The position numbers were made by a program, and so were the translations under genes. A stretch of DNA of 23,444 nucleotides, taken from IMG/VR virus record IMGVR_UViG_3300021425_000195, positions 1 through 23,444 of that record, one strand, 5' to 3'. A model generated the notes under the pieces. That model saw nothing but the letters and a program-made list of their open reading frames with translations, ran no database searches and was not told the origin of the DNA. This DNA comes from a virus. Positions 6,554 through 23,444 of this stretch are shown here, in pieces. Positions within the stretch are counted from its first letter, which is position 1, and the number at the start of each line of letters is the position of its first letter.

Positions 6554-6583
6554 CCCCAAACGGTCTGACCCTGTGCCTATAAT
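6539..6583 (+). promoter_or_regulatory. Promoter with upstream GTGGCACA box
   Basis: GTGGCACA (6539-6546), 39 nt to TATAAT (6578-6583), preceded by TGACCCTGTGC. No -35. The sequence after the -10 (GACTTCAGTTCA) closely matches that after the 553 promoter (GACATCAGTTCA). Confidence 0.6.
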
Positions 6584-6615
6584 GACTTCAGTTCAACCAA
6601 ACCGCTTTCATTCTC

Positions 6616-6969: not shown

Positions 6970-6971
6970 GT

Positions 6972-6977
6972 TACACT
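6972..6977 (+). promoter_or_regulatory. Possible -10 box (TACACT) for the 7003 gene
   Basis: TACACT lies 25 nt before ATG 7003, the same spacing as the other promoters here, and follows GGTCTGAG. No upstream GTGGCA box or -35 is found, so this is weak. Confidence 0.3.
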
Positions 6978-7002
6978 TAGTCCCAACAATCATCACATCA
7001 TC

Positions 7003-7209
7003 ATGATCACTAACAAGGACACATCTGCACTGGTTGATAACTACGTCAACCACATTATCGATGGCATGGATATGGATTGCCTGCTGCAAATGTGCCATGA
7101 TTTGTTAACACGAGAGTATGAGAAGTTGTCATGGGATGAGATCACTGAAGAGATCGTAGATCTCTATGATGAAGATACATTGATCGATCTAATCCCTGAC
7201 GCAAACTAA
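7003..7209 (+). CDS. Small conserved phage-type acidic protein (68 aa)
   Basis: 68 aa, MITNKDTSALVDNYVNHIID at the start, then a helical acidic body (LLQMCHDLLTREYEKLSWDE and EEIVDLYDEDTLIDL). I recall close relatives in cyanophages and other marine phages (the NKDTSALVDNYV opening is distinctive), without known function. Cytoplasmic. The start follows a His/Ile-codon repeat-like leader (ATCATCACATCATC) with no SD. Confidence 0.7.
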   Translation: MITNKDTSALVDNYVNHIIDGMDMDCLLQMCHDLLTREYEKLSWDEITEEIVDLYDEDTLIDLIPDAN

Positions 7210-7214
7210 ACACA

Positions 7215-7340
7215 ATGGCACACTTTACCATGCCTTACCTGCCAACCATTGGTCAGGGTCCAGTGAGCAGACTGTCCACCTACGTCGCCATTGGCAAGGG
7301 TCTTGCCTCTATAATTAGATCAATCAAACGAAACGCATGA
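7215..7340 (+). CDS. Possible small basic protein (41 aa)
   Basis: ATG 7215 begins five bases after the previous stop, and the frame ends in an ATGA overlap with the 7337 gene. The product (MAHFTMPYLPTIGQGPVSRL, then STYVAIGKGLASIIRSIKRN plus Ala) has a hydrophobic/basic amphipathic C-terminal half. Against it: the -10 box of the next gene lies inside, and the region may be purely regulatory. Tentative. Confidence 0.35.
   Translation: MAHFTMPYLPTIGQGPVSRLSTYVAIGKGLASIIRSIKRNA
7310..7315 (+). promoter_or_regulatory. TATAAT -10 box for the 7337 gene
   Basis: TATAAT 21 nt before ATG 7337, preceded by TTGGCA at 7291-7296 (only 13 nt away, too close for a normal -35) and GGGTCTTGCC. Two related palindromes lie upstream: ACCATTGGT (about 7239-7247) and GCCATTGGC (about 7287-7295), possible operator sites. 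Confidence 0.45.
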
Positions 7341-7552
7341 CCAACGCCATCGCAGTTCAACCCACAGCATGGGGCAAGTTCGATCCTAACGGGTGCGACT
7401 GGGCGACCGATATGAACCACGCTTTTAAGATCGGCAAGGCATGGGGTGAGGAGTGCATGATCTGGATGTGCCCTCCTAACGGTGACCCCATCCGCTGGTG
7501 TCGCACCGATGCTAACACCAACGCCATCGCTGATCTGGTGTTCGGTTGCTGA
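7337..7552 (+). CDS. Small Cys/Trp-rich hypothetical protein (71 aa)
   Basis: 71 aa with five Trp and five Cys (WGKFDPNGCDWATDMNHAF; WGEECMIWMCPPNGDPIRWC; ending in VFGC). The Cys spacing could bind a metal, but no standard zinc-finger pattern is complete. GC-rich with C-ending codons, unlike the structural genes. It has its own promoter and no SD. Function unknown. Confidence 0.65.
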   Translation: MTNAIAVQPTAWGKFDPNGCDWATDMNHAFKIGKAWGEECMIWMCPPNGDPIRWCRTDANTNAIADLVFGC

Positions 7553-7591
7553 ACTGCACACCATCACCCCCAGACTGCGCCCCTGACCCTG

Positions 7592-7597
7592 TAGAAT
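7592..7597 (+). promoter_or_regulatory. Probable -10 box (TAGAAT) for the 7604 gene
   Basis: TAGAAT preceded by TGACCCTG, matching the GACCCT-type -10 contexts at 553, 6213 and 6578. CTGCACA lies 38 nt upstream, a poor match to GTGGCACA. The ATG is six bases after the box. Confidence 0.4.
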
Positions 7598-7603
7598 CAA
7601 AGC

Positions 7604-7795
7604 ATGATCAAACAACACAACGGAATGTTTCTCGTCAATGAGACCGCTGCAAACGACCCCATCTGCCAGCAGGTCATGGCATCCTACATTGCAGAACTGA
7701 AAGCAGAGACCGCTAGGCGTGATCGCATCCGTCAGGGTCTGGAGGCAGCACCCGAAGGACAGTGGGGGAACTGGTCTATCAGTGACCGCCACTGA
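7604..7795 (+). CDS. Small hypothetical protein (63 aa), possibly leaderless mRNA
   Basis: 63 aa, MIKQHNGMFLVNETAANDPI, then a helix (MASYIAELKAETARRDRIRQ) and a Trp/Gly C-terminus (EGQWGNWSISDRH). The start is at the predicted transcription start. GC-rich, cytoplasmic, unknown. A long open frame on the opposite strand spans this and the preceding gene and is judged a shadow. Confidence 0.6.
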   Translation: MIKQHNGMFLVNETAANDPICQQVMASYIAELKAETARRDRIRQGLEAAPEGQWGNWSISDRH

Positions 7796-7814
7796 GGCAC
7801 AGACCGCCTAGGAT

Positions 7815-7845
7815 ACACACAACAAACAAACACACACAACACACC
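7815..7845 (+). promoter_or_regulatory. CA-rich unstructured leader
   Basis: The bases before ATG 7846 are almost only A and C (ACACACAACAAACAAAC and similar), with no G and almost no T, hence no secondary structure and no SD. A TAGGAT (7809-7814) could be the -10. Such leaders can support efficient SD-independent initiation. Confidence 0.4.
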
Positions 7846-8097
7846 ATGAACGGTTGGGCAAACTACGAAACTTGGAACGCTGCCCTGTGGATCGGCAACG
7901 ATGAGTTTCTCTACAACACTGCTAAGGCATGTGTGACCTATAGAGAGGCAGGCATTGAGACCCCTTGGGAGAAGTTCGTGCGCTGCATGACTGACGGGCA
8001 GATCGGTCGCCACCTCGTCAAGACTGGCGACGGTGTGCGTTGGGATGATCCTGCAATTGATGCAGACGAGATGAACGAAATGCTGTGGGATCTTTGA
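7846..8097 (+). CDS. YETWN-type small protein (83 aa; DUF7249-like)
   Basis: 83 aa opening MNGWANYETWNAALWIGNDE, the signature of a small family widespread in phages and cyanobacteria, which I believe is catalogued as DUF7249. A helical middle (LYNTAKACVTYREAGIETPW) and an acidic end (DPAIDADEMNEMLWDL) follow. The function of the family is unknown. The CA-rich leader and the tight arrangement with the next gene (three-base gap) suggest a two-gene transcript ending at the 8306 terminator. Confidence 0.75.
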   Translation: MNGWANYETWNAALWIGNDEFLYNTAKACVTYREAGIETPWEKFVRCMTDGQIGRHLVKTGDGVRWDDPAIDADEMNEMLWDL

Positions 8098-8099
8098 TC

Positions 8100-8300
8100 A
8101 TGAACATCAGAAAGTATCGCAAGATTGTCGACACCATCATGGCAGAGAATGACTTCTACATTCATGACGAATCCAAACACTTAAAATACAAACACAGAAA
8201 ACTAGGTATCATTCAGACATGCTCAAAGACACCTAGTGATAACTATGCCATCGCACAGATTAAGCGCCAAGTGAGACGCTCACTGGCAACAGTTAAGTAA
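8100..8300 (+). CDS. Small basic protein, possibly HicA-like fold (66 aa)
   Basis: ATG 8100 is preferred over an in-frame GTG at 8085 inside the previous gene. The 66-aa basic product (MNIRKYRKIVDTIMAENDFY; then KHLKYKHRKLGIIQTC; then TPSDNYAIAQIKRQVRRSL) has a helix - beta hairpin - TPSD - helix order that resembles the compact RNA-binding fold of HicA/YcfA proteins, with a KH in place of the usual GSH catalytic-His region. This is a weak resemblance; no HicB partner is adjacent. Confidence 0.6.
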   Translation: MNIRKYRKIVDTIMAENDFYIHDESKHLKYKHRKLGIIQTCSKTPSDNYAIAQIKRQVRRSLATVK

Positions 8301-8305
8301 CACTG

Positions 8306-8338
8306 AGGGGCAGTTAATTTGCCCCCTTATTTGTTAGT
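8306..8338 (+). terminator. Probable Rho-independent terminator
   Basis: GGGGCA (8307-8312) pairs with TGCCCC (8320-8325) around a short AT-rich loop, followed by CTTATTTGTT. It ends the 7846-8300 transcript and separates the small-gene zone from the structural module. Confidence 0.65.
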
Positions 8339-8403
8339 TAAGGTCGCCAAGCGGTTTCCAAAAACGCATGACTCCCCTAACCTACAAAAGTATCCAGACG
8401 ATC

Positions 8404-8411
8404 GATAAATA
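8404..8411 (+). promoter_or_regulatory. Late promoter-like box (GATAAATA)
   Basis: GATAAATA matches the core of T4-type late promoters (TATAAATA) recognised by the gp55 sigma-like factor in this phage group. It lies 58 nt before ATG 8469 and opens the structural module. A small hairpin (GGTTTTT...AAAACC, 8424-8437) sits in the leader. Confidence 0.5.
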
Positions 8412-8468
8412 TTTTACGAAATTGGTTTTTCAAAACCTTGAATTCTAAAAAAATTTCCCAGCAAAAAA

Positions 8469-8705
8469 ATGACCGAAAAACCCGACTTTGAGAACTTCGA
8501 TAGTATCTTAGAAAACTTCGACAAGTTCTGTGATGAGTTTGAGACACGCGCCGCTGAGGCATTTATGAGAGGAGACCAGAATAATGGAAAAGTCGTTAGA
8601 GCAGCAACAGAAAAACTTGGAGGAGAAACTCCTAGTGCTGTTGCAGAGATTGGAGAGTCTGGAGCAGAGGGTGGGGAACCTGGAGAGACCGACGATAGCG
8701 TATAG
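8469..8705 (+). CDS. Small acidic protein (78 aa), overlaps the next gene out of frame
   Basis: 78 aa. The N-terminal half (MTEKPDFENFDSILENFDKF and EFETRAAEAFM) is a well-formed acidic helix region. The C-terminal third is Gly/Glu/Ser-rich and low in complexity, corresponding exactly to the 122 nt shared with the 8584 gene. It follows the late promoter-like box and an A-rich stretch but has no SD. Probably a structural-module accessory protein; unrecognised family. Confidence 0.6.
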   Translation: MTEKPDFENFDSILENFDKFCDEFETRAAEAFMRGDQNNGKVVRAATEKLGGETPSAVAEIGESGAEGGEPGETDDSV

Positions 8706-8814
8706 ACGCCCCACAGGGAAAGACTACGAAACACTGTCAGACACTTTAGATTATCTTCACAATAATGTAGAAGGAATTAAACAAGATTTGTTAAAAGTAG
8801 CACAATCAGTCTAA
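8584..8814 (+). CDS. Coiled-coil protein (76 aa)
   Basis: 76 aa from ATG 8584, with AGAGGAG ten bases upstream as a good SD. Residues 1-35 form a clear heptad coiled coil (LEQQQKNLEEKLLVLLQRLE, then SLEQRVGNLE), followed by a YRRPTGKDYETL linker and another helix. The first 122 nt overlap the 8469 gene. It is coupled to the next gene by TAATG. A trimerisation or adaptor role in the tail is plausible but unproven. Confidence 0.7.
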   Translation: MEKSLEQQQKNLEEKLLVLLQRLESLEQRVGNLERPTIAYRRPTGKDYETLSDTLDYLHNNVEGIKQDLLKVAQSV

Positions 8815-9923
8815 TGGCAGTACCCTGGATAAATTTCTTAGCACCATCGATGGGCGGTATAGGACCCATTGAGTTATCGGACCAACCGAAACTCGATGAA
8901 CTTACCAAGAAGAACAACATACCATTCTATGCTGGGAGATTTTATCCAAAGGACTCGCAGGCAATTATTGATGGTACTCTCCAACTTGGATTAATTTCTC
9001 AGACACCACCATGGCTTACGTGGGAGGAGATCGAGAGCACTCAGATTTGGATGATTCCGATCTTTGAGGATGAGAGGGTAGTCTCTACGGTAACTACTAT
9101 AGAGAGGGTTGATTTATGGCCTAGAGACCCTGAGGAGGGTCTTCCAGAGTGGGAGCAGACATTTTATGATGAGCAGATCCAAAGCGAGGCATGGGGATGG
9201 GGAGGAGGTCTTGTAGGCGTCAATATCGACCCAGGTCTTGTAGTCACTCAGAATGTTGTACCACCAGTTTTGTTTCTGGGATATGTAGGTATTTCTGCCA
9301 TCAGTGGGAGGATCACCGAGTATGCGTTTTATGATCAGGAGATGACGTATATCAAAGCACCTCAGTATAACATGCCAGGGTTAGCGGGAGGTGACTATGA
9401 GTACACCGAGATTACTAGAGTAAGGGGTGATGGTATATGGCAGCAAGTTCCTGCAGATTTACCAGAAGCGGGCGAACCATTTGAGATTGAAGAGAATGGA
9501 GGGTATCCAGGAAACTTTACTCACCTAACGCCGAACAGTGGGTATTCACAATGGGCAATGAGTTCTAATATAGCGGAAGCGCGAACATGGGGTAATGAGA
9601 CATGGGATGCGCTGACAAAGTTTAATGATGATGGCAAACCTCAAATTGGTACATTCCAAGAATTTAAGACGAGTGAATTAGACACTGTTGTATTTACGAT
9701 CAAGGTATCTGCAATAACTGTTGTTGTACCTGATGAACCATTCCCCGATGATGTTGCAACAGGATTAGCAGATTATGCACAAATCGCGTTAGAGACCCTT
9801 GGTTCTAACTTATCGAATAATATTTGGTATTTCTATCTTCCAGTGAGATATAACGGAGAAATCCCTGCTGAGAGGATACAGTACCTTCTAAATAGAGCAG
9901 CAATCAACCAACCTGACGCATGA
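8814..9923 (+). CDS. Probable tail/baseplate-region protein, unrecognised (369 aa)
   Basis: 369 aa, MAVPWINFLAPSMGGIGPIE at the start, rich in Trp, Pro, Gly and acidic residues, with no signal peptide. A Gly/Val-rich stretch at about 125-168 (WGWGGGLVGVN and PPVLFLGYVGISAIS) suggests beta structure, and the C-terminal part carries helices (LADYAQIALETLGSNL). It lies in the late-type structural module directly before a PAAR gene (ATGA overlap), which favours a virion component near the spike, but no homologous family is recognised. It does not look like gp5 (no lysozyme motif), gp53 or gp48. Confidence 0.65.
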   Translation: MAVPWINFLAPSMGGIGPIELSDQPKLDELTKKNNIPFYAGRFYPKDSQAIIDGTLQLGLISQTPPWLTWEEIESTQIWMIPIFEDERVVSTVTTIERVDLWPRDPEEGLPEWEQTFYDEQIQSEAWGWGGGLVGVNIDPGLVVTQNVVPPVLFLGYVGISAISGRITEYAFYDQEMTYIKAPQYNMPGLAGGDYEYTEITRVRGDGIWQQVPADLPEAGEPFEIEENGGYPGNFTHLTPNSGYSQWAMSSNIAEARTWGNETWDALTKFNDDGKPQIGTFQEFKTSELDTVVFTIKVSAITVVVPDEPFPDDVATGLADYAQIALETLGSNLSNNIWYFYLPVRYNGEIPAERIQYLLNRAAINQPDA

Positions 9924-10333
9924 AACCAATTGGATTGCTTGGTGCTTATAGTAACCACGATATACATCCAGTTCCCGTGCCGAAACCAGCACCCGTAGGT
10001 GTTTCTGCAAATGTCTATATTAACGGCAGAGCAGCACATCATGCAGGGAATACATTTGTGGAGCATACTATTCCTATGATTCCTCCACCACCATTGCATA
10101 GTGATATAATTATATCAGGGCATCCTACTGTATGGATCAATGGTGCCCCTGCAGCGATGCAAATCGAGAGTGAGATAGTTGCACTACCTCCTGGCATTGG
10201 AGTGGGGTCTCTGATCCTTACAGGGTCGCATACGGTCTTCATGGGGGATGCAGCACCATTGGTTGGTACAATCTCTGATGAAGAAGTTTCTTTTCCAGAA
10301 CCAGAACCACCTGCTACCCCACCAGCAGCATAA
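9920..10333 (+). CDS. PAAR-domain spike-tip protein (gp5.4-like)
   Basis: A 137-aa PAAR-type protein. Repeated beta motifs with His at 40, 41, 49, 60, 68 and 104 (VYINGRAAHHAGNTF; SGHPTVWINGAPAA; LTGSHTVFMGDAAP) match the cone-shaped zinc-binding PAAR fold that sharpens the T4 gp5 spike and T6SS VgrG spikes. The C-terminus is a short Pro/Glu tail. Known biology places it at the very tip of the central spike, reaching the host envelope first. It overlaps the preceding gene (ATGA), consistent with co-assembly. Confidence 0.85.
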   Translation: MKPIGLLGAYSNHDIHPVPVPKPAPVGVSANVYINGRAAHHAGNTFVEHTIPMIPPPPLHSDIIISGHPTVWINGAPAAMQIESEIVALPPGIGVGSLILTGSHTVFMGDAAPLVGTISDEEVSFPEPEPPATPPAA

Positions 10334-10368: not shown

Positions 10369-10515
10369 ATGGCACGAGCAAAAGTCGGACTGAGCGGCAA
10401 GAAAGTTATTGAGACTCAACCTAAGAATACTCGTCAAGGTATGGGAAAGAATACAAAGTATGCTGCAACTTCACGTAACAAAGCACGTAAAAAGTATCGC
10501 GGTCAAGGTCGATGA
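10369..10515 (+). CDS. Very basic 48-aa protein
   Basis: MARAKVGLSGKKVIETQPKN continuing to ARKKYRGQGR: about a third Lys/Arg, no acidic cluster, with Gly-rich turns, so very high pI and probably nucleic-acid binding. I recall near-identical short proteins at this position in T4-like cyanophages. It is too short for most gene callers. It has its own TATAAT box 24 nt upstream and an ATGA overlap into the next gene. Confidence 0.7.
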   Translation: MARAKVGLSGKKVIETQPKNTRQGMGKNTKYAATSRNKARKKYRGQGR

Positions 10516-11177
10516 ATTTAATCTGCAACCTTCCCGCTGAGAAAGTCTGGGTACGTAAAGAATATTTACGAGATCATCAAGATGGTCATGGGGAGTTTGT
10601 AGAGGGCGTCTGGGTATGTGCAAAAAGCATACCTGGACGTGCTTTTTATTTTGAGACGTACCTACCAGAGTATGGTGCAATGTATGACAAACTTCCTATT
10701 AGTGCGTTTGTACGATCCCCCGAAACCCCAGTCATAGACATGAGTTTGGAGAATCTACAATTTTGGAATTGCATGGACTATGGTGTTGCATGTATGAACA
10801 AAGGTTTTATATCATCCATGGATTGTGAAATCTTTACTAGAGATCATGGACTGATGAAAGGTCAGTATTTGTTCACTCTTGACAACTATCATGCAAATCC
10901 AGATGTGATAGATAATAATGTAAGTGAAGTGCCACAAGAGCATAAGTCTCATAATTGTATTGCTTTAGAGAATGGTCAATATGCTTTGTATCCTAATAAC
11001 AGGATGCGTCTGTATGACCTCTCTATCACCCCTGAGAACCCCCAATTCCCCGATTTCAAGGTATCTACCATAGAATATCAAGTAGAGGCAGGAATCGACT
11101 GGGGACGCCTTGGAGACACTGATGATTATTTCTGGCAAACACCAAAGGAGAAAAACGATGGGCAACAGCAGAGTTGA
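10512..11177 (+). CDS. Conserved cyanophage-type structural-region protein (221 aa)
   Basis: 221 aa, MNLICNLPAEKVWVRKEYLR at the start, beta-rich with many aromatics (GRAFYFETYLPEYGAMYDKL) and a C-terminal segment ending DTDDYFWQTPKEKNDGQQQS. I recall it as a conserved hypothetical protein between the PAAR region and gene 25 in cyanomyoviruses; function not established. It overlaps the basic gene upstream (ATGA) and the next gene by 20 nt. Confidence 0.65.
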   Translation: MNLICNLPAEKVWVRKEYLRDHQDGHGEFVEGVWVCAKSIPGRAFYFETYLPEYGAMYDKLPISAFVRSPETPVIDMSLENLQFWNCMDYGVACMNKGFISSMDCEIFTRDHGLMKGQYLFTLDNYHANPDVIDNNVSEVPQEHKSHNCIALENGQYALYPNNRMRLYDLSITPENPQFPDFKVSTIEYQVEAGIDWGRLGDTDDYFWQTPKEKNDGQQQS

Positions 11178-11361: not shown

Positions 11362-11754
11362 ATGCCAACCTTTCAGACATTCAAAGATTTGAGTGTTACG
11401 TTTAAGAAGCATCCTGTTACCGATGATTTGGTAACAGTGAAAGATAAGGCAGCTATTGTGCAGTCTATTTCTAATTTGCTTCTTACAAATAAAGGCGAAA
11501 GACCATTTCAACCAGATCTAGGGTGCGGACTACGAAATGTATTATTCGAACCACTAGATTTTGCTTCTGCTGGTATTATTCGTTCAGAAGTTACGGATAC
11601 ACTTAAAAAGTATGAACCAAGAATTGTGGTTAATACAATTCGTGTTTATCCTGATGAAATGAATAATGGATATGATGTTGAAATTTCTTACACCATTGTT
11701 GGTAGAGATGATGCACCAGTAACTATAGACATCTTTCTAGAGCGTACACGATAA
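11362..11754 (+). CDS. 25: gp25 baseplate wedge protein
   Basis: 130 aa, nearly the length of T4 gp25 (132). The GPW_gp25 signature NLLLTNKGERPFQPDLGCGL occupies about residues 38-57, with Glu46-Arg47 of the conserved 'GeR.f.P..G' block. gp25 is the conserved wedge core that bundles with the gp6-gp7 heterotrimer and contacts the sheath-initiating region in contractile tails. It follows a late promoter-like box and joins gene 6 as TAATG. Confidence 0.9.
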   Translation: MPTFQTFKDLSVTFKKHPVTDDLVTVKDKAAIVQSISNLLLTNKGERPFQPDLGCGLRNVLFEPLDFASAGIIRSEVTDTLKKYEPRIVVNTIRVYPDEMNNGYDVEISYTIVGRDDAPVTIDIFLERTR

Positions 11755-13550
11755 TGCCTTATACTCAGGTTGCAAACTTAGATTTTGATGATATCAAATC
11801 TGCTCTAAAAGACTACCTTAGAGCACAGTCAGATTTTACTGACTATGACTTCGAGGGTTCGGTATTATCAACATTGATTGATACTCTTGCCTATAACACC
11901 TACTACACGGCGTTTAACACCAATATGGTGGTCAATGAACTATTCATTGATTCAGCGACCCTTAGGGACAACGTAGTAGCGATTGCGAAGCAATTAGGTT
12001 ATAGACCCAAGAGTATCACTTCACCTACAGCCCAGATTTCATTTACTGCATCATATACAAATCCAACACTAGATACTGAATTAATTCTAAAAAGAGGAAC
12101 AGGATTTATTGCCAATTATGACAATACAATCTATCAGTATGTTACTATCGAGGATACTAAAGCACAAGTAGCAAATGATAGAGCAGTATTTACGGATGTA
12201 GAAATTAAAGAAGGAACTATAGTTGTTAATAATTTTACTGTTGATAATTCACTATCTTCACAGAGATTTATTCTTGACAACCAAAACATTGATGTTAATA
12301 CTATCAGAGTAAAGGTTTATCCAACTGGAGGAACGTTTAACGAACCTTATCTGTTAGCAGAAAATATTCTCGGTATAGATGGAAACTCGAAGATCTTCTT
12401 CTTAGAAGAAACCGAAGATGATAGATACGAGATGATATTTGGCGATGGAGTTTTAGGTAAGGCACTAGAGAATGGTGCGAGAATAGAAGTGTCTTACCTA
12501 ACTACTTCTGGACCAGACTCAAATGGAGTTAAGAGTTTTGTATTCACTGGAGTATTAGAAAATCCAAGTGGAGTTTCTCCAAGTGCTATTAGTGTAGATA
12601 TTAATTCAAGTGTTTCATCTTCTGGTGGAGAGTTACCAGAGTCTGTAAAGAGTATTAAATTCAATGCTCCAAAGATATATGGAACTCAGGATCGTGCAGT
12701 TACATCTGAAGACTATGCTGCTATCGTTCGCAAGATTTATCCATCAGTTAGTGACATTATTACATTTGGTGGAGAAGATCAAGATCCACCAGAATATGGA
12801 AAAGTATTCATTGTACTCAAACCAGTTGATGCTTCATATTTGACTTCACTAACAAAAAGACAAATTACGGATGAATTAAAAAAATATGTTGTTGCTTCTG
12901 TAGAACCAGTTATTGTTGATCCTTCTATACTCTATGTTGAATTAACAAGTAAGATTTACTATAACGGAAATATTACAGATCAAACACCTTCACAGATTAG
13001 AGACAAGGTTATTGGATCTGTGCAAACCTATACTAGAAACTCTGATACAGAAAAGTTCAACGGTAAATTTAGATACAGTAAATTTGTTGGTGTAATTGAT
13101 GATGCAGATCGTACCATTAACTCCAACTTAACAGAAGTTACAATGAGGAAAGATTTCTATCCTCAGTTGAATTCTACATTCTATTATGAGATATGTTTCC
13201 AAAATGCTTTTGATGAGGAATGTGATGGACCAACCCTCTCTAGTACAGGATTTAGAGTAACTGAATATCCTACTTTTGATGTCTATCTTGAAGATAGGGA
13301 TGGCAAAATTGTCCTATATAGACTAGACACTGTGACTGGCGAAAAAGTTGTTCTCAACAGGGATGTTGGGGACATTGATTATGCTAGAGGCGAACTTAAA
13401 ATTTATGATCAAACTATCATCAAAGGTAGTTTCTTTGATAATCGTATTTCAGTTAGAGTAAAACCACTGTCTAATGATGTTCAGGCACTCCGTGAGGTTT
13501 ATCTGGACGTTGATGTAGCGAATTCAAGTTTCACCGCATATAAAGAGTAA
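11754..13550 (+). CDS. 6: gp6 baseplate wedge protein
   Basis: 598 aa, close to T4 gp6 (660). The N-terminal region (VANLDFDDIKSALKDYLRAQ; later FEGSVLSTLIDTLAYNTYY) and the Baseplate_J-type block NAPKIYGTQDRAVTSEDYAA (starting at about residue 304) are characteristic of gp6/gpJ family members. gp6 dimerises to link neighbouring wedges into the baseplate ring and pairs with gp7. It begins in the TAATG of gene 25 and ends four bases before the giant gene. Confidence 0.9.
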   Translation: MPYTQVANLDFDDIKSALKDYLRAQSDFTDYDFEGSVLSTLIDTLAYNTYYTAFNTNMVVNELFIDSATLRDNVVAIAKQLGYRPKSITSPTAQISFTASYTNPTLDTELILKRGTGFIANYDNTIYQYVTIEDTKAQVANDRAVFTDVEIKEGTIVVNNFTVDNSLSSQRFILDNQNIDVNTIRVKVYPTGGTFNEPYLLAENILGIDGNSKIFFLEETEDDRYEMIFGDGVLGKALENGARIEVSYLTTSGPDSNGVKSFVFTGVLENPSGVSPSAISVDINSSVSSSGGELPESVKSIKFNAPKIYGTQDRAVTSEDYAAIVRKIYPSVSDIITFGGEDQDPPEYGKVFIVLKPVDASYLTSLTKRQITDELKKYVVASVEPVIVDPSILYVELTSKIYYNGNITDQTPSQIRDKVIGSVQTYTRNSDTEKFNGKFRYSKFVGVIDDADRTINSNLTEVTMRKDFYPQLNSTFYYEICFQNAFDEECDGPTLSSTGFRVTEYPTFDVYLEDRDGKIVLYRLDTVTGEKVVLNRDVGDIDYARGELKIYDQTIIKGSFFDNRISVRVKPLSNDVQALREVYLDVDVANSSFTAYKE

Positions 13551-13554
13551 GTAA

Positions 13555-16500
13555 ATGGCTGCTGTTAAGACCAAGAGAATTTCAACTCTAATTGAGTCCC
13601 AGCTCCCTGAATTCATTACTGATGAATACGAACTATTTTCTAAGTTCGTTCAGAAGTATTATGAAGCACAGGAAGTTCAAGGCGGTGCTTTGGATATCAT
13701 TAGCAATATCCAAAAATATGCAGACATTGATTTTTATGAAAAGAATTTATTAAAGCAGAACGACATTCTTTCTGCAACCATTTCTGCTACAGATACAACA
13801 ATTACTGTAAATGATGCGCGTTCATTTCCAGAAAAAAATGGTTACATTAGAATCAATGACGAGATTATTTTTTATGCCACCAGAACAGACACACAGTTTT
13901 TAGAGTGCTCTAGAGGTGTAAGTGGTAACACTACACTTGGAGATCTTTACAATACTTCTAATTTTAGCAGCACTGAGGCAAGTTCCCACCAGTCTGGAGA
14001 AACAGTATTTAATGTTAGTAATCTTTTCTTATATGCACTTGTAAGGAATTTCGAAAGTCAATATTTAAGTTCTTTTCCAGAGAAGTATCTCAAAGGAGAA
14101 ATTGACAAGAGAACTTTAATCAAGAATATCCAAAAGTTCTATAAGGCAAAGGGAACACAAAGTTCAATTAAATTTATTTTCAATACTATTGTCGCTAAAG
14201 ATATTGAAAATAAACCAGAGGTTTATAACCCAAAAGACTTTACATATAAAGCATCTAAGTCTGATTGGACTAATGTTTTTGCTATCAAGGCAAAAGTAGT
14301 TACTGGAGATCCAAAAAATCTTATTGGAAAGCAAATTGTTCAGCAACCAACTGATGAGTATGGATATGCCTCTGCAACAATTGATAATGTATATGCAGAA
14401 GGAACCAGTGATGGAGAACAAATCTGGAATCTAGTTGTTGCCCCAGAGACTGTCAATGGTATCTTTGAGATCTCAACTAAGACTAAACTAGAGAATGAAC
14501 TTCCTTCGACTTATGGTGCTGGAAAAAGAGTTGATGTATTTTCAACAATTGGTTGGGACACCACGGGATCATTCCTAATTGGAGATGAAGTTATTGAATT
14601 TGATGATAAAAATGTAACTCAATTCATCATTAAAGAAAGAGGTGACATCCCCACTACTTATGCAGCAGGATCTTCTGTATATAAACCAGTAACTATTGAG
14701 GGATCTGGAGTAACGTTACTAACATTTGGTGTAGTATATGGTCTTGCTCCAGTTGCAAGAAACCCATACTCATCAGTAGGTGATCAAATTCAAGTATCAA
14801 ATCCTGGATTTGAGACAACTGATCCAAAAATTATAAAGACTGGATTAAATCAGACTAGATGGTTGCTTTCGCAAGGTGCTTCTGTCAATTCTCCAACTGT
14901 CCCATATGTTGCAACCGCATTAGATCAAGTTTCTACTAACGTTTCTGCTATTTTTGCAGATGAACAATATTACTATATTACCAGTTCTTCTTTTCCATCT
15001 TACAAAATCCTAGATGGTTCTATCACTACAGATACTGTTGCTGATCAGAAGATTCTAAGAATTATTAGACAGAAAGCAACTAATACTACAGAAATCTATA
15101 AAACACCAAAACGTGACGTAGGCATCCTACTGAACGGTGTTCCAATTTATGGATATAAAGATCCCGAAAGCGTTAGGTATGGCAAATTAGAAAAAATTGA
15201 TGTTAATACTCAAGGTAATGGATATGCAAAACCCCCATTTGTCCTTATTGATGATCTACCAAACAAAGCAAGAGCATTTCTTGCTGGTCAGGTAGTTGAT
15301 AGTATTGAAGTAACTACTGAAGAGACATTCATTTCAACTCCAAAAATTACAATTACTTCAGGAAGAAATGCTAAAGTCAGAGCAGTTGTAACAGGAGGAA
15401 AAGTTACTAGTCTAGTAATTGACGACCCTGGAGAGTTTTATTCATCTCCACCAATCGTCAATATCAGAGATAATTTAGGAAGAGGAAGATTTGCTAATTA
15501 TCAAGCAGTTGTTAATAGTGCAGGTGAGATTACTGGATTTGAAAAAATTGAAGAAGGCAACTTCTATAATCAAAATTCTGTAGTTGTAGATATTATTCCT
15601 GTTGGGTCAAACGCTACTGGAACTCCTTCTCTTAAAGAGTGGAACTTTAATAGATTCCAAAAGTTATCTAACAACTTGGATACTGATTATGGTCATCTAT
15701 TTGAGAACTATAATCCTGCTAATGACTATGGATATGGTCATGTTGGAAATCCAAAAACTCTTCGTATTAGTCTTAGCGACAATATCGACAATGCTGGATC
15801 AGAACCAACTGTAAAAACGCACTCTCCAATCATTGGTTTTGCTTATGATGGCAATCCAATTTATGGTCCCTTTGGATATGAAAATCCACTAAATCCACAA
15901 TCTTCAATTGTGAGAATGACTTCCAGTTATTCTCTTAATGGTACTAGATCTGGTGGTCCCTCAACTAGAGAATATGCATTAGGAACGTTTGTAAATGATT
16001 ACACCTATGCTCACAAAAGCGGTTCTTTAGACGAAAATAATGGAAGATTCTGTGTCACTCCAGATTTCCCAGAAGGAACTTATGCTTATTTCCTTACTAT
16101 TAATAGCAATCAAATACCACAATTCCCATATTTTCTAGGTGACAACTATTATTCACTGCCAGTAGATAGCAATTACAATTCTAGCATAAATCAAAACGAT
16201 GTTCCAAAAAATGCAAAAAGATTTTATCTTCCAGGAATGTCACGAAATGGCGAGGGTCTTATCGCTACAGTCTCGGAAGTAAAATCTGGAACAGTTGATG
16301 GCATTTTACTTGATAGATCATCAAGCAACTTCTCAGTCAATTCTAAATTATACTTTGATGAAAAAGGTACAGACGGATCTGGTGCAGAAGCATCTGTATC
16401 TTCTGTTAAGGGAAAATCTGTAAGTTATCTAGAAAGTAAAGAAGATAAGGTTGTAAAACTTACAACAATTCAGAACGCATACTTATTTGCAGATGATACT

Positions 16501-19500
16501 CTAAGACAACCAGCGTCTGGAGCTTCTGGTGACATTGTTGGTACTGTACAGAATGACAATGTGATTGTTTTAAGAAATGTCATTGGCACTTTTAATAATA
16601 CTGGTACTTTCTCTGCAGATATCAAAACCTTTACTCTTTTCTTAGATAAGAATAGCACATATACTGAGGGAGCAACTCTTTCTCTGACTGATGGTATTAA
16701 TCCACCAATTGCAACAGCAGAAGTATTAGATGGATCTAATAATCAGAATATTATTAGAATCAAAGTTCTAACAGGAACCTGGATTATTGATGATGATTAT
16801 TTCTTGCAATCAAGTGACTTGTTCAATACCTCAGGAACAAAGATTGTAAATCTTACATCTCTTAGTGATAACCTAGAACCATTTGATGTAAATCAAAATG
16901 TAGCATTAATTGAGACTGCTGAGAATCATGGTTTGGGTATTGGTGATAATGTAATCGTTGATATAAATCCCGACGATAATACAAAAACCAAAACATATTA
17001 TCTAAGAAAGAGATTATATCAAGAAGTTGTTTTTAGAACTCCTGTATTTGACACTACAATTGACTTTACTGGAATTGGTAAATTTACGATTCTAAATGGT
17101 GGAGCAGACTATGCACCAGGACAATACCAAGATGTGCCATTGACTGGCGGATCAGGGTCTGGTGCTACAGCAAGCATCACTGTATCTGATGCTGGATTAG
17201 TATCCAGCATTCAGATTCAATCTCTTGGTGAAGATTACAGGAGAGGAGATTACTTGTCTGTAGATGATGAAAGTCTATCAAGGTCTTTAGCATCACTAAG
17301 CACAGCAAGATTTACTGTATATGTTGATCATGTTGGATTTGCAGCAGGATCTAGTAAAGTTATTGTCAAAGACGCAAAGGGATATGCAGAAGGTGATTTA
17401 ATACAGATAGGAGAAGAAGTTGTAGAAATTTCTTCTATCAATGGTACAGAACTTACTGTTATTAGAGCAAGAGAGAATACGAAGGATGTAGATCACTTTG
17501 ATGGACAAAGAGTATCTCTCTACAATGGAAGATATAACTTTACCGATAATTATCAAGTACAATCTGGTATTGGAACTGGTTATATTAAAACATATGATCC
17601 ATCTACACAAACTGCTACGATTGTGTTTGATTATGGAACGCTGAAGAGCACTGCAAACCCAGTTGCTCTTAGCACTACATTTTTTGATTCGAGTAATCCT
17701 AATAGACTTGTAACTGTAGTATCAGTCAGCGATGTAGATTACAAATTTGAGTTCTCTGAAGATAATCAAACATTTGATCCCAATCCTAACATTGATTTAC
17801 AGGAATATTATCGTTATCTTTTCGATACTTCACACTCATCTCTAACTGGAACTTTCTTTGATGTAAGTCCAAGTGGAAGATTCAATCTAATAACATTAGA
17901 AAAACTTTCCAGTTCTGTTCTACCAGGAAACCCAGGAGCATTTACTGATCTTAAATTTGGTTTTGGATCTAGATTAGAAGGTAATACGTATCAAGAAAAA
18001 GTAGGAACTAATTTTACAAATTTCTACTACTTTGACAAAAATGGTATTGTAAATGCTGAAGGAAAGTACTTTAAGATTGTACAAGATCCTTTGCAAGGAG
18101 CAAAGACTGTAAATTATGTAACACCAAACAGATTTGTTTATGACTTAACAACTGTTCCACTTTGGGATGGATCTGGAAGCATTACATACACTACATCTGG
18201 ACAATTTGCTGTTGGCGAGATCAATTCTATTAACGTCTCGAATTTGGGTCTGAATTATAAAAAGGTTCCTATTGTTTTAGGTTGTGATCTAAGTTCCAAT
18301 TTTATCGCTAAAGCAACGGTATTGTTTGATACATCTACTCAAACAATAACTGGTGTGAATATTGATAATAAAGGATCTAATTATGTAAATCCAAAAGTTG
18401 TTATTATTGATGGAGATGGTTCTGATGCAACATTTAATGTTGTTGCAAGAAATGGTGAGATCTTCTCCATCACTGTAGATAATCCTGGAAGAGGATATAC
18501 TTACGCTCCAGTAATTCAAATCATTGAATCTGATGTAGAAGCATATGTTGATAGTAATACTATTGGAAATCCACAGAGTATTAACATCTTTAGAAATGGT
18601 GGAGCATACCATTTAGACAAAACCGTATCTTCTACCTTTACGACAAAATACGTAATCTCATTAAAAGATTTTAATGGAAATTTCTTAAAAGGAGAGACGG
18701 TATCTCAATCTATTAATGGCGTTAAAGTATTTACTGCTAAGGTTGCAGAATGGAGATTTGGATCTAATTTACTCAAATTAGAAAACACTGTAGGAAGTAT
18801 AAGAAATACAGTTCCTTTTGTAGGAAAGATTTCTAATGCTTCTGGAATGCTTAGAGCAGTATATGTAACTTCTCTTGCAGAAGAGATTACATCATTCTAT
18901 GACAATATTGGATCTTATCAGTCTGATAGAGGAAAAATTGGTGTTGCTAATCAAAAACTAACTGACAGTTTCTTCTATCAAGATTATTCATATGTTGTAA
19001 AATCTAAGACTCCAATTGATCAATGGAGAGACCTGATTAAATCTACAACTCATCCAGCTGGATTCAAGTTGTTTGGTCAAGTTGATATTGAAACTGACGC
19101 TGAGACCAGAATGCCAGCGCAGTCTCCAAAGTCTGATAATTTTTCTATTATACAACTTTGGGATCCAGAAAAAAATAAAATTACTGTAGAAAGCACCAGA
19201 AGAATTGTAACTCAAACTATAACCAGCACAAAGAGCAGTAAAGAAATTAAAGGTGTTGGTTCTGCCCATGCATCAGAATTTAATTTTTCTGAGACAAGAG
19301 CATTTGAGGTTACTCTTGCTGCTCCTTTTGACGGAGTTAATGGTGTAGATGCAACAGCTGGATATACTGGTGGAGCAGAGAATGTTGGAACAAAAATTTT
19401 CCAACTTCTGGATGATGAAGGCAATCCTTTCACTCCAGTCAGTGCGAAAAACCTTATTATTACATTAAATGGTATTTTACAAGAACCAGAAGTTTCTTAT

Positions 19501-22500
19501 ACAGTATCAGGTGATAAAATTATCTTCTCCCAAGCACCTTTGGGTCCATCATCTAAATTAACTGGAACAAATCTTTCAGATTTAACTTCGTATGATGGCA
19601 CAAAGTTTTATGGAAGATATATTGAGTTTAAGGATAATCAATATAATACACAGTATTTCAAGAAACTAAGAAACATCTTCCAAAGAAATGGAAGGTGGTT
19701 AGATGCTGCAAATCAGATTCAGAGAAACAGAGAATTTATTGTCGAAGAATCTGTAGGATATGGCAGAGAGAAATATCCAAATTTAGATTGGAGCACCAAG
19801 ATTGATGATTATCTAGAAGATGTTGGTCATATCATCGATGCATATGAGCACGATGTACGTTTTGGTGGAAATGTTAAAACTGTAGATTATCTTTCAATAT
19901 TCAGTTCAGATGATGATTATGATTACATAACAACAAATAAAACCGAATCTTTAGATATATTTAAGTATGCTACAAACCTTTCTAAGTTATCAGTTAGGAA
20001 CTGGGATGTTGTAGAAGAAAATGTTTCATACATTCAAGGATCTAGACAAGTAACAGTTGCTGATACTAATAATCTAGCTATTGGAATGTTTATTAGTTCT
20101 GGTACTGCATTTGCATCTGGAACTAAAATTGTTTCTATTGATAGTAATACACAAATTACTCTAAACAATGCTGCTCTAGCAAACTCTGGTGGAGCAGGTG
20201 GTGCTGCAGCAGGAGTTACTGATCTAAATGGATCAACAGGAGGCAGTGATTTTATCATGCCTACAAGTACAGGTGCAGTTCAACCAGGAAATCAGTATGC
20301 TGTTGATCCTGGTGATGTTTTACAAGCACCCATTTCATTCTCTGCTTCTGATAGTGCAACTTTCTATTTCAGTGGCATCAATAATGGAACTTTCTGGGAT
20401 GCATCAGATTTAATTGCTGGCAATAAAGAATATTTCAAGGAAGAAATTGCTGGATGGTTTGCTGCACAATATCCTAATATTACCTGGACGGATCTAGAAA
20501 AAGACATAGACATTTATACTGATGCTACTGTTTATCATTTAAGATTTGGTGGAAATGAAAAAGTAGTTGATCATGCACAACTATACTATGAGAGAAATCT
20601 ATATCCATATCCAGAGCAATTAAAAGCAGGTGTAAGTCCTGCGGAATTTGCTGCTGCATACAATCAATTAAAAGTTCTTATGGTCGATGCCATGAGAAAT
20701 GCTTTAGGAGCAGGAACATATACTTCCATTCCTCCATTCACAGATAGTAATGTAGCAACAGATACTTCTTTCCCATACTGTGCTCAGGTAGAAAGTGCTC
20801 TTAATAATTTCTATAGCATAATCTATACTATATTGAATGAAGGTAAAGGTTTGATTGAAAAGACCAGTATTAATGCAAACTATGCTGGAAACTGGAGTAG
20901 AACCTTAACATATTCTAATTATAACATAATTCCCGATCCTCTCTTGTCATCACAGGAGTGCAACGATGTTATTTCATCTATAGATTCATTGTTTGACAAT
21001 GTAAATGATATTCTTAATAACACTAGTGTTACTAGATCTACTCCAGACTTCTTGGATGGAGAAACCACTACTTTTGATATGTATTGGGATGATGACACAG
21101 CAGTTAATACTGAAGAAGATGAAGATCTATTCCTAACATTAAATGCTGTCTTACAGAGACCAAAATACACTCCATCATATCCACTTTCTGATGCATACTA
21201 TATTGACAGAACAACTATTCCAAACAAATTAGTATTTGATGTTGCTCCCATTTGGGATCAAGATTTTAGTGCTAAGAGCATTGGAGAACCAACAGCAGTA
21301 GAATTAGTTGCTGGTATTGGAGTAGGAAACTATAAGAGATTGACTATTGATTTTGCATTAGTAGATGAAGTCAGAGGTGGTCCTTTCCTAATCCTAGACG
21401 TTGAGGACAACACATCACAAGAAATTGAGCAGCAAGATTACTTGTTTGTATTCTTGGATGGAGTTTTACAGAGAAGAGAATATTCTTATACTATAGCAGG
21501 ATCTACAATTTCTTTCAACGTTCCGATTAAGAAAGATACTAAAATTGATATGAGATATCTCTATGGAAGAGATTTAGATCAAATTATCAATTTCCATGAT
21601 TTTGTTCAGGATGCGTTCTATGCACAGGGTTTAGTAACATTTGATGTTGCCTCTGGAGCAACTGAGTTGTTAAACTGGATTGGTCTAAACACTGCAGAGA
21701 CTTTCCATGCATGGCAAGTCAATCCCAATGGATCTTTTAACGTTATTGGAAAACTTACAAATCCTTTACAATCTTCTAATTTAGTATCTTTTACTCTTGA
21801 AGGTCAGAAATGCGATTTAATTCAAGGTGTTGATGTTGTAGTAGCAACTAAAGGAAATTATTCTAATAATAGAATTATTTCATTGAACTCTTCTGGATCT
21901 AGCATATCTTATGTCACTGATGAAGAAGGAAGACTTGAACTTGGATATCCACAATCAGAAAATGCTTGGCGTGGAACATTTATTAGAAAGTTCTATAAAG
22001 ATCCTTTTGTTTCTTTATCAGATGGAGACTATGTAAAAATTGAGGGAGAGAGTGACTTTAGAAGAGTTAAGAAAGCACCCGAAAAAACAACCTCTAAAGA
22101 ACATAGAAATCAAGGATATGTCACGGGTTCCAATTTTGGTATTGCTCAAGTAGAAGCATATAATGGCGTAACTAGAGGCGAAGGACTAAGCATCGTCGCC
22201 AAGATTGAAAACGGATCAGTTGTAAGTCTTGAGTGGAATCAGCGTAGTTATGATCCTTTGACTCAACCAACTGCATATCAATATTATACACCACCAGTAT
22301 TACATTTTATTCCAAAAAATGGAAATGGTGGCGGTGCTAAAGCAGTAGTTCTTGTAAGTAAAGGTCAAGTTATCAGTGTTGATCTTCTTGATGGTGGATC
22401 TGGATATACAGAAGCACCAAGAGTTGTTGTTGCAAGAAGATATGACATCTTGCAAGGAAGAGGATTTGGTGTATCTGCTATTGGTGGTGGAATTAATTCT

Positions 22501-23444
22501 ATTCTACCAGCATTTACCATGTCATCAACTTCATTAGTTGATGTTGTTGGAAACCAAGTTCCTGGTGTATCCACATTCACTACAGTTCTTTTTGATAGTC
22601 CTTTCGAGATTAATAGAAAGATTGAAGCTGAGATTCAATTAATAAAGAACGTTGGAGATGGTCTCATTTGTGGTGTTGATGCTGTTACAGTCACCTCGGG
22701 TGGTGTAGGTACAATCGTTACTGTTGAGGCAACAACAGCACCAAATGAATACTTATCTATTATATCTGGTCGTATTGATGACATTATTTCTACTTCTGTT
22801 CTTGTTTCTTCTAGACAACTTACTTCTATAGTAACTAACGAGATTGACAATACTGATATCAGTGCTGGTCATTACCATGCTGTTGGTGCATTCTTGTCTA
22901 TTGATTTGGATCCAACCGACAATATTGTATTTGTTCCTGACATTTCTAGGTTTAGTTCCAATGGATACTTACAAATTGGAACAGAGGTAGTTAGATACTA
23001 TCGTAAATCTTTTGGAAGATTCTTAAATGTCCAAAGAGGTCAAGAGGGAACAACCGCGCAGTTCCATCCAGCAGGAACATTTGTTGTACAGATTCCAGAT
23101 CCAGTATCTGTAGCATACGGCGGTATCTCTAGAATTGAATCTGAGTCTCAAATTGTTACTCTGAAAGGAGGAGCAGATGTAGGCAGAACTGAGAAAGTTG
23201 CTATTATTCAATCGGTTTCTCCTGGTGTAACAATACAAAACATCCATAGAGATGTAATTACTGAAGTACAAGCACAATTAAGTATTCAGTCCATATCTAA
23301 TGTTAATACTGTAATCAACTATGAGGTAGAAACTAAATTATTTAATGTAAAATCTTTTAATACAACACATAAGGAAACTACAGTCGAGGGCGAAATTCAA
23401 TTACAAATTGAAAATTCATCCGAATTGAAGATTGAACAAACAAT
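13555..23444 (+). CDS. Giant gp7/gpI-like baseplate wedge protein with YHYH and beta-repeat modules (5' partial of the gene, over 3,296 codons)
   Basis: Open from ATG 13555 to the right edge with no stop. N-terminus: LPEFITDEYELFSKFVQKYY (17-36) and FYKAKGTQSSIKFIF (195-209) match the 'lPeF...Fv.YYe' and 'KGT..Sikf' features of the gpI/gp7 wedge group, and the position after gene 6 is that of T4 gene 7 (1,032 aa). Modules follow: 'E.i.y...RG' units near residues 103, 343, 1283 and 3143; 'GxGY..pP.v.i' units near 551, 623, 1183, 1223, 1563, 1603, 1643 and 2943; a YHYH-like domain at about 755-855 (SPIIGFAYDGNPIYGPFGY); 'LNGiLQ/LDGVLQR' modules near 1970, 2530 and 2635; and two 'FGGN' modules near 2100 and 2335. 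The periphery of the baseplate, possibly with receptor or glycan contact, is its likely place (inference). Confidence 0.75.
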   Translation, partial: MAAVKTKRISTLIESQLPEFITDEYELFSKFVQKYYEAQEVQGGALDIISNIQKYADIDFYEKNLLKQNDILSATISATDTTITVNDARSFPEKNGYIRINDEIIFYATRTDTQFLECSRGVSGNTTLGDLYNTSNFSSTEASSHQSGETVFNVSNLFLYALVRNFESQYLSSFPEKYLKGEIDKRTLIKNIQKFYKAKGTQSSIKFIFNTIVAKDIENKPEVYNPKDFTYKASKSDWTNVFAIKAKVVTGDPKNLIGKQIVQQPTDEYGYASATIDNVYAEGTSDGEQIWNLVVAPETVNGIFEISTKTKLENELPSTYGAGKRVDVFSTIGWDTTGSFLIGDEVIEFDDKNVTQFIIKERGDIPTTYAAGSSVYKPVTIEGSGVTLLTFGVVYGLAPVARNPYSSVGDQIQVSNPGFETTDPKIIKTGLNQTRWLLSQGASVNSPTVPYVATALDQVSTNVSAIFADEQYYYITSSSFPSYKILDGSITTDTVADQKILRIIRQKATNTTEIYKTPKRDVGILLNGVPIYGYKDPESVRYGKLEKIDVNTQGNGYAKPPFVLIDDLPNKARAFLAGQVVDSIEVTTEETFISTPKITITSGRNAKVRAVVTGGKVTSLVIDDPGEFYSSPPIVNIRDNLGRGRFANYQAVVNSAGEITGFEKIEEGNFYNQNSVVVDIIPVGSNATGTPSLKEWNFNRFQKLSNNLDTDYGHLFENYNPANDYGYGHVGNPKTLRISLSDNIDNAGSEPTVKTHSPIIGFAYDGNPIYGPFGYENPLNPQSSIVRMTSSYSLNGTRSGGPSTREYALGTFVNDYTYAHKSGSLDENNGRFCVTPDFPEGTYAYFLTINSNQIPQFPYFLGDNYYSLPVDSNYNSSINQNDVPKNAKRFYLPGMSRNGEGLIATVSEVKSGTVDGILLDRSSSNFSVNSKLYFDEKGTDGSGAEASVSSVKGKSVSYLESKEDKVVKLTTIQNAYLFADDTLRQPASGASGDIVGTVQNDNVIVLRNVIGTFNNTGTFSADIKTFTLFLDKNSTYTEGATLSLTDGINPPIATAEVLDGSNNQNIIRIKVLTGTWIIDDDYFLQSSDLFNTSGTKIVNLTSLSDNLEPFDVNQNVALIETAENHGLGIGDNVIVDINPDDNTKTKTYYLRKRLYQEVVFRTPVFDTTIDFTGIGKFTILNGGADYAPGQYQDVPLTGGSGSGATASITVSDAGLVSSIQIQSLGEDYRRGDYLSVDDESLSRSLASLSTARFTVYVDHVGFAAGSSKVIVKDAKGYAEGDLIQIGEEVVEISSINGTELTVIRARENTKDVDHFDGQRVSLYNGRYNFTDNYQVQSGIGTGYIKTYDPSTQTATIVFDYGTLKSTANPVALSTTFFDSSNPNRLVTVVSVSDVDYKFEFSEDNQTFDPNPNIDLQEYYRYLFDTSHSSLTGTFFDVSPSGRFNLITLEKLSSSVLPGNPGAFTDLKFGFGSRLEGNTYQEKVGTNFTNFYYFDKNGIVNAEGKYFKIVQDPLQGAKTVNYVTPNRFVYDLTTVPLWDGSGSITYTTSGQFAVGEINSINVSNLGLNYKKVPIVLGCDLSSNFIAKATVLFDTSTQTITGVNIDNKGSNYVNPKVVIIDGDGSDATFNVVARNGEIFSITVDNPGRGYTYAPVIQIIESDVEAYVDSNTIGNPQSINIFRNGGAYHLDKTVSSTFTTKYVISLKDFNGNFLKGETVSQSINGVKVFTAKVAEWRFGSNLLKLENTVGSIRNTVPFVGKISNASGMLRAVYVTSLAEEITSFYDNIGSYQSDRGKIGVANQKLTDSFFYQDYSYVVKSKTPIDQWRDLIKSTTHPAGFKLFGQVDIETDAETRMPAQSPKSDNFSIIQLWDPEKNKITVESTRRIVTQTITSTKSSKEIKGVGSAHASEFNFSETRAFEVTLAAPFDGVNGVDATAGYTGGAENVGTKIFQLLDDEGNPFTPVSAKNLIITLNGILQEPEVSYTVSGDKIIFSQAPLGPSSKLTGTNLSDLTSYDGTKFYGRYIEFKDNQYNTQYFKKLRNIFQRNGRWLDAANQIQRNREFIVEESVGYGREKYPNLDWSTKIDDYLEDVGHIIDAYEHDVRFGGNVKTVDYLSIFSSDDDYDYITTNKTESLDIFKYATNLSKLSVRNWDVVEENVSYIQGSRQVTVADTNNLAIGMFISSGTAFASGTKIVSIDSNTQITLNNAALANSGGAGGAAAGVTDLNGSTGGSDFIMPTSTGAVQPGNQYAVDPGDVLQAPISFSASDSATFYFSGINNGTFWDASDLIAGNKEYFKEEIAGWFAAQYPNITWTDLEKDIDIYTDATVYHLRFGGNEKVVDHAQLYYERNLYPYPEQLKAGVSPAEFAAAYNQLKVLMVDAMRNALGAGTYTSIPPFTDSNVATDTSFPYCAQVESALNNFYSIIYTILNEGKGLIEKTSINANYAGNWSRTLTYSNYNIIPDPLLSSQECNDVISSIDSLFDNVNDILNNTSVTRSTPDFLDGETTTFDMYWDDDTAVNTEEDEDLFLTLNAVLQRPKYTPSYPLSDAYYIDRTTIPNKLVFDVAPIWDQDFSAKSIGEPTAVELVAGIGVGNYKRLTIDFALVDEVRGGPFLILDVEDNTSQEIEQQDYLFVFLDGVLQRREYSYTIAGSTISFNVPIKKDTKIDMRYLYGRDLDQIINFHDFVQDAFYAQGLVTFDVASGATELLNWIGLNTAETFHAWQVNPNGSFNVIGKLTNPLQSSNLVSFTLEGQKCDLIQGVDVVVATKGNYSNNRIISLNSSGSSISYVTDEEGRLELGYPQSENAWRGTFIRKFYKDPFVSLSDGDYVKIEGESDFRRVKKAPEKTTSKEHRNQGYVTGSNFGIAQVEAYNGVTRGEGLSIVAKIENGSVVSLEWNQRSYDPLTQPTAYQYYTPPVLHFIPKNGNGGGAKAVVLVSKGQVISVDLLDGGSGYTEAPRVVVARRYDILQGRGFGVSAIGGGINSILPAFTMSSTSLVDVVGNQVPGVSTFTTVLFDSPFEINRKIEAEIQLIKNVGDGLICGVDAVTVTSGGVGTIVTVEATTAPNEYLSIISGRIDDIISTSVLVSSRQLTSIVTNEIDNTDISAGHYHAVGAFLSIDLDPTDNIVFVPDISRFSSNGYLQIGTEVVRYYRKSFGRFLNVQRGQEGTTAQFHPAGTFVVQIPDPVSVAYGGISRIESESQIVTLKGGADVGRTEKVAIIQSVSPGVTIQNIHRDVITEVQAQLSIQSISNVNTVINYEVETKLFNVKSFNTTHKETTVEGEIQLQIENSSELKIEQT

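Follow-up and report, generated by a model that had tools for sequence, protein, structure and literature searches.

A probable giant gp7 baseplate protein in a viral genome fragment, with growth inside and after its core and phycobiliprotein-like helical modules

The locus and its reading frame

The DNA analysed here, in the following simply called the window, is the whole of IMG/VR record IMGVR_UViG_3300021425_000195, a viral fragment of 23,444 bases. Its last gene lies directly after gp6 in a run of baseplate genes (Table 1). The frame (13555..>23442, plus strand) stays open for 3,296 codons and leaves the record at the 3' end; its PHROG match is phrog_4406 'virion structural protein' (residues 4-3283, E=0). 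Ahead of the structural genes, positions 4955-8800 hold many short ORFs on both strands, and the relatives are likewise rich in small genes. A 221-aa protein at 10512-11177 bears the PHROG label 'ferredoxin' (phrog_3704) and has a relative called PurM in GenBank; the label looks doubtful.

A sequence-only reading of this DNA had claimed a single frame of at least 3,296 codons after gene 6, over three times the size of T4 gp7, and both statements hold. The sequencing error hiding a stop for which it had allowed is excluded by the nearest relative (L006, IMG/VR), whose 3,499-aa ORF aligns without gaps up to window residue 3250, with an identity of about 90-95% over most of the length. In addition, ORFs of the window's class are closed at 3,419-3,569 aa at 23 loci, from which it follows that the frame is real and that, by size comparison, some 130-270 residues are missing at its end. 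Where a locus of this class reaches gp8, that gene starts 55-61 bases after the closed giant ORF. At one further locus (L019:3367-5574) the window-class gp7 stops after 736 codons within the YHYH domain and D modules follow further along the contig; this is probably an assembly frameshift or a broken gene.

A search with the first 248 residues matched 476 phage records, of which nearly all are from cyanophages; ACG-2014e and S-RSM4 stand at 81%. The ACG-2014e homologue, 3,495 aa long, is flanked by gp6 and gp8. Beyond gp8 come a structural protein of 2,706 aa at the VrlC position, then two virion proteins of lesser length and a fibre of 3,114 aa. A giant gp7-like ORF was also seen in each of two MAGs labelled Planctomycetaceae and Euryarchaeota (L341 and L342); in both cases phage DNA has probably been binned with a bacterial or archaeal genome.

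Table 1. Features of the window, with positions in the DNA and residues of the giant protein
Feature	Residues	Position	Strand	Evidence or remark
PAAR gene		9920-10333		
gp25, baseplate wedge / sheath initiator		11362..11754	+	phrog_261 E 2e-55; PF04965
gp6, baseplate wedge		11754..13550	+	phrog_219 E 1e-211; PF21379
Giant gene, very probably gp7 (baseplate wedge initiator)		13555..23444	+	3,296 codons, 3' end missing
gp7 core head, first half	7-68	13573..13758	+	family HMM; collinear with T4 gp7 from 641
Head insert including A module 1		13759..13947	+	not in 590-aa gp7; head split in all giants
A module 1 (RG-beta)	80-126		+	within head insert
gp7 core head, second half	132/134-307	13948..14475	+	family HMM; T4 gp7 to about 831
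A module 2	323-368	14521..14658	+	
B module 1 (GxGY)		15181..15255	+	
B module 2 (GxGY)		15397..15471	+	
YHYH domain	671-884	15565..16206	+	PF14240 E 7e-31; most metal-site histidines lost
A module 3	1266-1309	17350..17481	+	
B modules 3 and 4	1598-1658	18346..18528	+	
Closing domain, HPAG motif, ancestral C-terminus	1786-1847	18910..19095	+	family HMM; T4 gp7 about 850-905
C module 1 (DGxxQ)		19426..19557	+	
Phycobiliprotein-like region	2041-2488	19675..21018	+	D modules 2044-2116, 2276-2345
C module 2	2627-2663	21433..21543	+	
B module 5	2937-2959	22363..22431	+	
Hypervariable patch 1	2971-3120	22465..22914	+	dN/dS about 1 vs 0.10 elsewhere in gene
A module 4	3122-3167	22918..23055	+	
Hypervariable patch 2	3201-3296	23155..23442	+	

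The gp7 core and its sites of growth

BLASTP of the giants against T4 gp7 gave no match, so that profiles were required. A search of PDB sequences with the whole window protein found nothing. Using hhalign, the core profile scored 112 against the T4 gp7 profile (columns 636-899, T4 residues about 641-905), compared with at most 25 for decoys, namely reversed and column-shuffled profiles and other T4 baseplate proteins. The head alone scored 88, the closing domain alone a modest 30 versus at most 21 for decoys. Early hhalign output from gappy alignments (two runs) was discarded, since every alignment in it received a high probability.

The fold of the gp7 core was compared on a minimal homologue of 590 aa (L299) and not on the window protein. 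In Foldseek, the top three PDB matches of its AlphaFold model (mean pLDDT 74) were all T4-type gp7: 5iv5, 9f4a and 5hx2, with E from 2e-6 to 5e-4. VIA gave Z values of 10.7, 10.5 and 8.0 for these entries over 152, 153 and 147 aligned residues, placing model residues 79-572 on T4 720-895; the rmsd of 15.9-16.8 arises because the domains are differently placed. The head helices of the model have low pLDDT and lie outside the structural alignment, and no gpI-type chain is among the fold matches listed. The gpI-like bundle of the head is an assignment made at the level of sequence, and its relation to P2 gpI runs through T4 gp7. Matches of the beta part to EF-Tu/eIF2-gamma at Z 6.5 were rejected as lying within the stated noise.

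Regarding genome order, gp8 comes next in relatives of the same size class, and some GenBank records (S-SSM7, P-HM2) already use the name gp7 for homologues. Large proteins from this position are found in virions: 91 unique peptides were reported for ORF122 of S-CREM2 (PMC10665884), and S-SM1 virions contain a protein of cluster T4-GC969 (PMC3037559), to which the 6,483-aa gp7 of Syn19 belongs. Overall, the profile score and the folds of the minimal homologue uphold the earlier identification of the ORF as gp7. It was published in 2020 that cyano- and pelagimyophages lack gp7 and have VrlC in its stead (PMC7029224). The failure of BLAST to find T4 gp7 similarity in the giants would agree with this, as would the label 'VrlC' that the giant carries in some records. 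However, a gp7 core is found between gp6 and gp8 by profile and fold comparison (made for cyanomyophages), and VrlC genes are found after gp8, alongside gp7, in phiN3, DLP6, Syn19 and P-HM2. An absence of gp7 from cyanophages is consequently extremely improbable.

In the window protein the core comprises residues 7-68, 134-307 and 1786-1847, collinear with T4 gp7 641-905, and the 590-aa gp7 matches window residues 7-67, 148-261 and 1634-1867 in the same order. The mosaic build proposed earlier is borne out. The wedge-like part is not, however, confined to the N-terminal 210 residues as that reading had it: core sequence is also found at 220-307 and 1786-1847. Family HMMs detect one head and one closing domain in every complete family member, with a single exception, an ORF that is truncated within the YHYH domain. 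Cyanophage giants have a split head, interrupted after residue about 60-68 by an insert of ~64 aa in the window and of 579 aa in Syn19. The spacing of head and closing domain varies across the family from about 245 aa to more than 2,600 aa, and beyond the closing domain 15 to over 2,600 aa follow as a tail. By these alignments, length is gained at three places: inside the head, between the head and the closing domain, and after the closing domain.

Altogether, post-gp6 genes with a gp7 head form a size series of 590, 742, 902, 1,006 (phiN3), 1,288 (DLP6), 1,454 (S-CRM01), 3,007 (S-SSM7), 3,048 (S-PM2), about 3,500 (window class), 4,454 (P-HM2, included because it is annotated as gp7 and has D modules) and 6,483 aa (Syn19). 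With S-CRM01 as query, only two loci were found in viral contigs. In most of the series gp8 adjoins gp7; one or two extra genes stand ahead of gp8 in Syn19, S-PM2 and S-CRM01, and at least two in S-SSM7. A second large gene annotated as gp7 is present further downstream in S-SSM7 (L085, 25090 onward) and P-HM2 (L358, 25551-32822).

Repeat modules, helical region and C-terminal tip

Regarding the inserted material, the sequence-only reading had described at least four repeated types of beta-repeat modules. Four types are present, namely A (RG-beta, four copies), B (GxGY, five copies), C (DGxxQ, two copies plus one weak) and D (two copies), but the D type is helical, and the modules together make up ~550 residues or only ~17% of the length. 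The window protein also contains a match to the YHYH proteins (PF14240), for which a role as metal hydrolases has been proposed (PMC7824862). Among the forms tested, this domain is present in the giants of ACG-2014e, S-SSM7, S-PM2 and Syn19 and not in the smaller forms. Five copies, all from Bacteroidota, served as cellular comparators; they share 7 invariant histidines. Of these, 30 phage copies keep only one throughout, namely window residue 756, which lies in THSPIIG. The phage copies differ in this respect from the cellular ones, and with one of seven site histidines kept, catalysis by the phage domain is unlikely.

Of the arm, window residues 1868-3050 were folded, which gave a model that is weak overall (mean pLDDT 53), though values of 65-87 are reached in much of the D region. 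In Foldseek, the leading rows were nearly all phycobiliproteins, the best at E 0.015 and none below 0.001. In VIA, the best 50 entries listed, with Z from 17.7 to 14.4, all had the phycobiliprotein fold; the top two combined Z 17.7 with an rmsd of 4.4 over 153 residues and Z 17.6 with an rmsd of 2.1 over 135 residues, and across all rows the rmsd was 2.1-2.5 (124-137 residues aligned) or 4-5 (150-161 residues). In this model, the aligned span of 174-621 (135 residues) suggests that D copy 1 may be completed by a helix after copy 2. At the sequence level, a profile of the module family searched against PDB sequences returned only phycobiliproteins among the 60 matches listed (best E 7e-7), with an alignment that covers the chromophore motif. 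In S-WAM2, a PF00502 match is above the cut-off (E 6e-7). A Pfam search with a window D copy alone had no match. By hhalign, the D modules scored a modest 25.4 against five phycobiliproteins (shuffled maximum 16.9, T4 proteins at most 20.2); the calibrated PDB profile search is the stronger evidence. A Pfam match to tRNA-synt_1c overlapping D1 (E 0.006, below cut-off) was taken as spurious.

Since helical folds often give middling matches, and identity in the D-module structural alignments is only 11-19%, the likeness might be due to convergence only. This is highly improbable in view of the exclusive listing of phycobiliproteins among the PDB sequence matches, the PF00502 hit above cut-off, the low rmsd at Z 17, and the occurrence of the modules in cyanophage records only: all 391 phage records are labelled Synechococcus, Prochlorococcus, cyanophage or, in one case, marine. 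Judged by profile and predicted fold, the helical D modules are homologous to the phycobiliproteins (PF00502: phycocyanin, phycoerythrin, allophycocyanin), which they resemble in fold and in the sequence around the chromophore site. Unlike these, they are embedded in a virion protein, their counterparts of the N-terminal helices are mostly unmatched, and the window copies have no bilin cysteine. The modules occur many times per genome, fibre proteins included. In a partial literature search, judged by titles and abstracts, no phycobiliprotein-like domain was reported in virion proteins.

The C-terminal tip shows a different rate of evolution. Compared with the two nearest relatives, residues 1-2950 have a dN/dS of about 0.10-0.12, whereas residues 2971-3120 reach about 0.7-1.1 in three pairs (Fisher 3e-15, 3e-9 and 6e-10); the three comparisons are interdependent and the choice of region followed inspection of the data, but the excess is far above the number of windows scanned. 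The ratio is raised at residues 3201-3250 as well, and a conserved A module lies between the two hypervariable patches. A first dN/dS value for residues 3121-3296, from a forced global alignment, was replaced. When 18 close pairs were pooled, dN/dS was 0.45 at 2971-3120, while the core and the greater part of the arm gave 0.08-0.12. This pooled value, together with the restriction of dN/dS > 1 to some windows of the closest pairs, means that the fast tip could also reflect relaxed constraint. The pattern of substitution suggests contact with the host or with a changing fibre.

Baseplate role and the bilin question

The sequence-only reading had further proposed that gp10, gp11 and gp12 were absorbed into gp7, bringing peripheral jobs onto one chain. 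The window protein holds none of the gp9/10, gp11 and gp12 Pfam families, which the same library detects in T4. Gp9/10-type and gp11 domains are missing from ACG-2014e and S-PM2, as absorption would have it, and the arm has PHROG matches to 'short tail fiber' and 'tail fiber' families. These matches, however, correspond to the D modules (2047-2188, 2276-2491), which are common to several proteins. In whole-genome searches, the gp11 domain was found in T4 only, and the gp9/10 domain was not found in ACG-2014e, S-PM2, S-CRM01, phiN3 or DLP6. The gp7 of phiN3 and DLP6 is T4-sized (1,006-1,288 aa), yet both phages lack the two domains, whereas S-SSM7 and Syn19 encode the T4 gp9/10 N-terminal domain in separate gp9-like genes next to giant gp7. 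The loss of gp10/11 therefore does not track gp7 size. Collar domains are present elsewhere in the genomes of ACG-2014e, S-PM2, S-CRM01 and phiN3, and in ACG-2014e long VrlC-like and fibre genes follow gp8. The fold search with the arm listed no gp10, gp11 or gp12, an absence from which, given the weak model, nothing is inferred. Overall, absorption of these proteins is very unlikely.

In T4-type phages, the gp7 core joins two gp6 to form the wedge. On the best overall explanation, the window ORF very probably encodes the gp7 of a T4-type cyanomyovirus, which initiates the baseplate wedge, and its core would join two gp6 in the same way. By sequence, the protein consists of a conserved core (helical head, beta part and HPxG closing domain) with lineage-specific inserts at three sites. 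The inserts and the C-terminal arm of 1,450 or more residues may project outward, with the fast-evolving tip meeting the host surface or anchoring a changing fibre. The phycobiliprotein-homologous region in the arm was probably captured from a cyanobacterial host gene and would be reused as a structural module.

With T4 gp7 (PDB 5iv5, 5hx2), the window protein shares the place in the genome, the core and the partner genes gp25, gp6 and, in relatives, gp8. In the case of T4, however, the extra mass of about 640 aa lies ahead of the core, whereas that of the window protein lies inside and after it. The gp7 or virion structural proteins of S-SSM7, P-HM2, S-PM2 and Syn19 (phrog_4406) agree in gene, place and giant size, and in those checked (S-SSM7, S-PM2, Syn19) the YHYH domain is shared; they differ in size and arm modules, the window belonging to the 3,400-3,600-aa class of ACG-2014e. 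A loop within the first domain and a C-terminal tail past the core are also found in the gp7 orthologue of Vibrio phage XM1, gp17, where the loop and the C-terminus hold tail spikes (PMC10457771). Gp17 has only 242 aa, and its short loop and tail hold separate spikes. By analogy with XM1, growth at the head-loop and C-terminal sites plausibly serves attachment.

Whether the D modules carry bilins is a separate matter. In named phages, the attachment-site Cys is present in 24 of 28 module copies, the Asp in 26 and the full Cys-x-Arg-Asp in 17, in proteins where Cys makes up just 0.2-0.6% of residues (two proteins counted). Moreover, cpeT, which is bilin-lyase-like, is found in 7 of 8 genomes with modules versus 0 of 10 without (Fisher 2.5e-4). 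In ACG-2014e, cpeT lies directly upstream of a module-rich fibre gene: NC_026928 (18240-31357, L367) shows cpeT and then a gene for a 4,075-aa 'short tail fiber' rich in phycobiliprotein-like modules. The modules might thus be working chromoproteins in most cyanophages, loaded by phage CpeT with phage- or host-made bilins, the window copies being degenerate. However, phylogeny may account for the co-occurrence, as the two groups of genomes may be different phage lineages, and bilin reductases occur in only some genomes with modules and also in some without. T-type (CpeT-type) lyases are reported to act on Cys-153 rather than Cys-84 (PMC10452541), for which reason we treat the link between cpeT and the modules as a hypothesis. 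In the window, both D copies have lost the attachment Cys (DDYLEDVG, DLEKDIDIY), which makes attachment of a bilin through the usual bond hardly possible. Working chromoproteins are for these reasons unlikely. The fuller scenario, in which a host phycobiliprotein gene was captured, copied into baseplate and fibre proteins and bilin-loaded with the help of phage CpeT, is unlikely. If true, it would place chromophores on virions or assembling tails and would explain why phages, those of Prochlorococcus included, keep bilin genes.

In conclusion, there is strong sequence and fold evidence that the giant 'virion structural proteins' after gp6 in cyanophages are gp7, contrary to its published absence, and the sites at which gp7 grows are now mapped. 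The phycobiliprotein-like module, in turn, opens to direct test, on purified virions, the question why cyanophages carry cpeT and genes for bilin synthesis.
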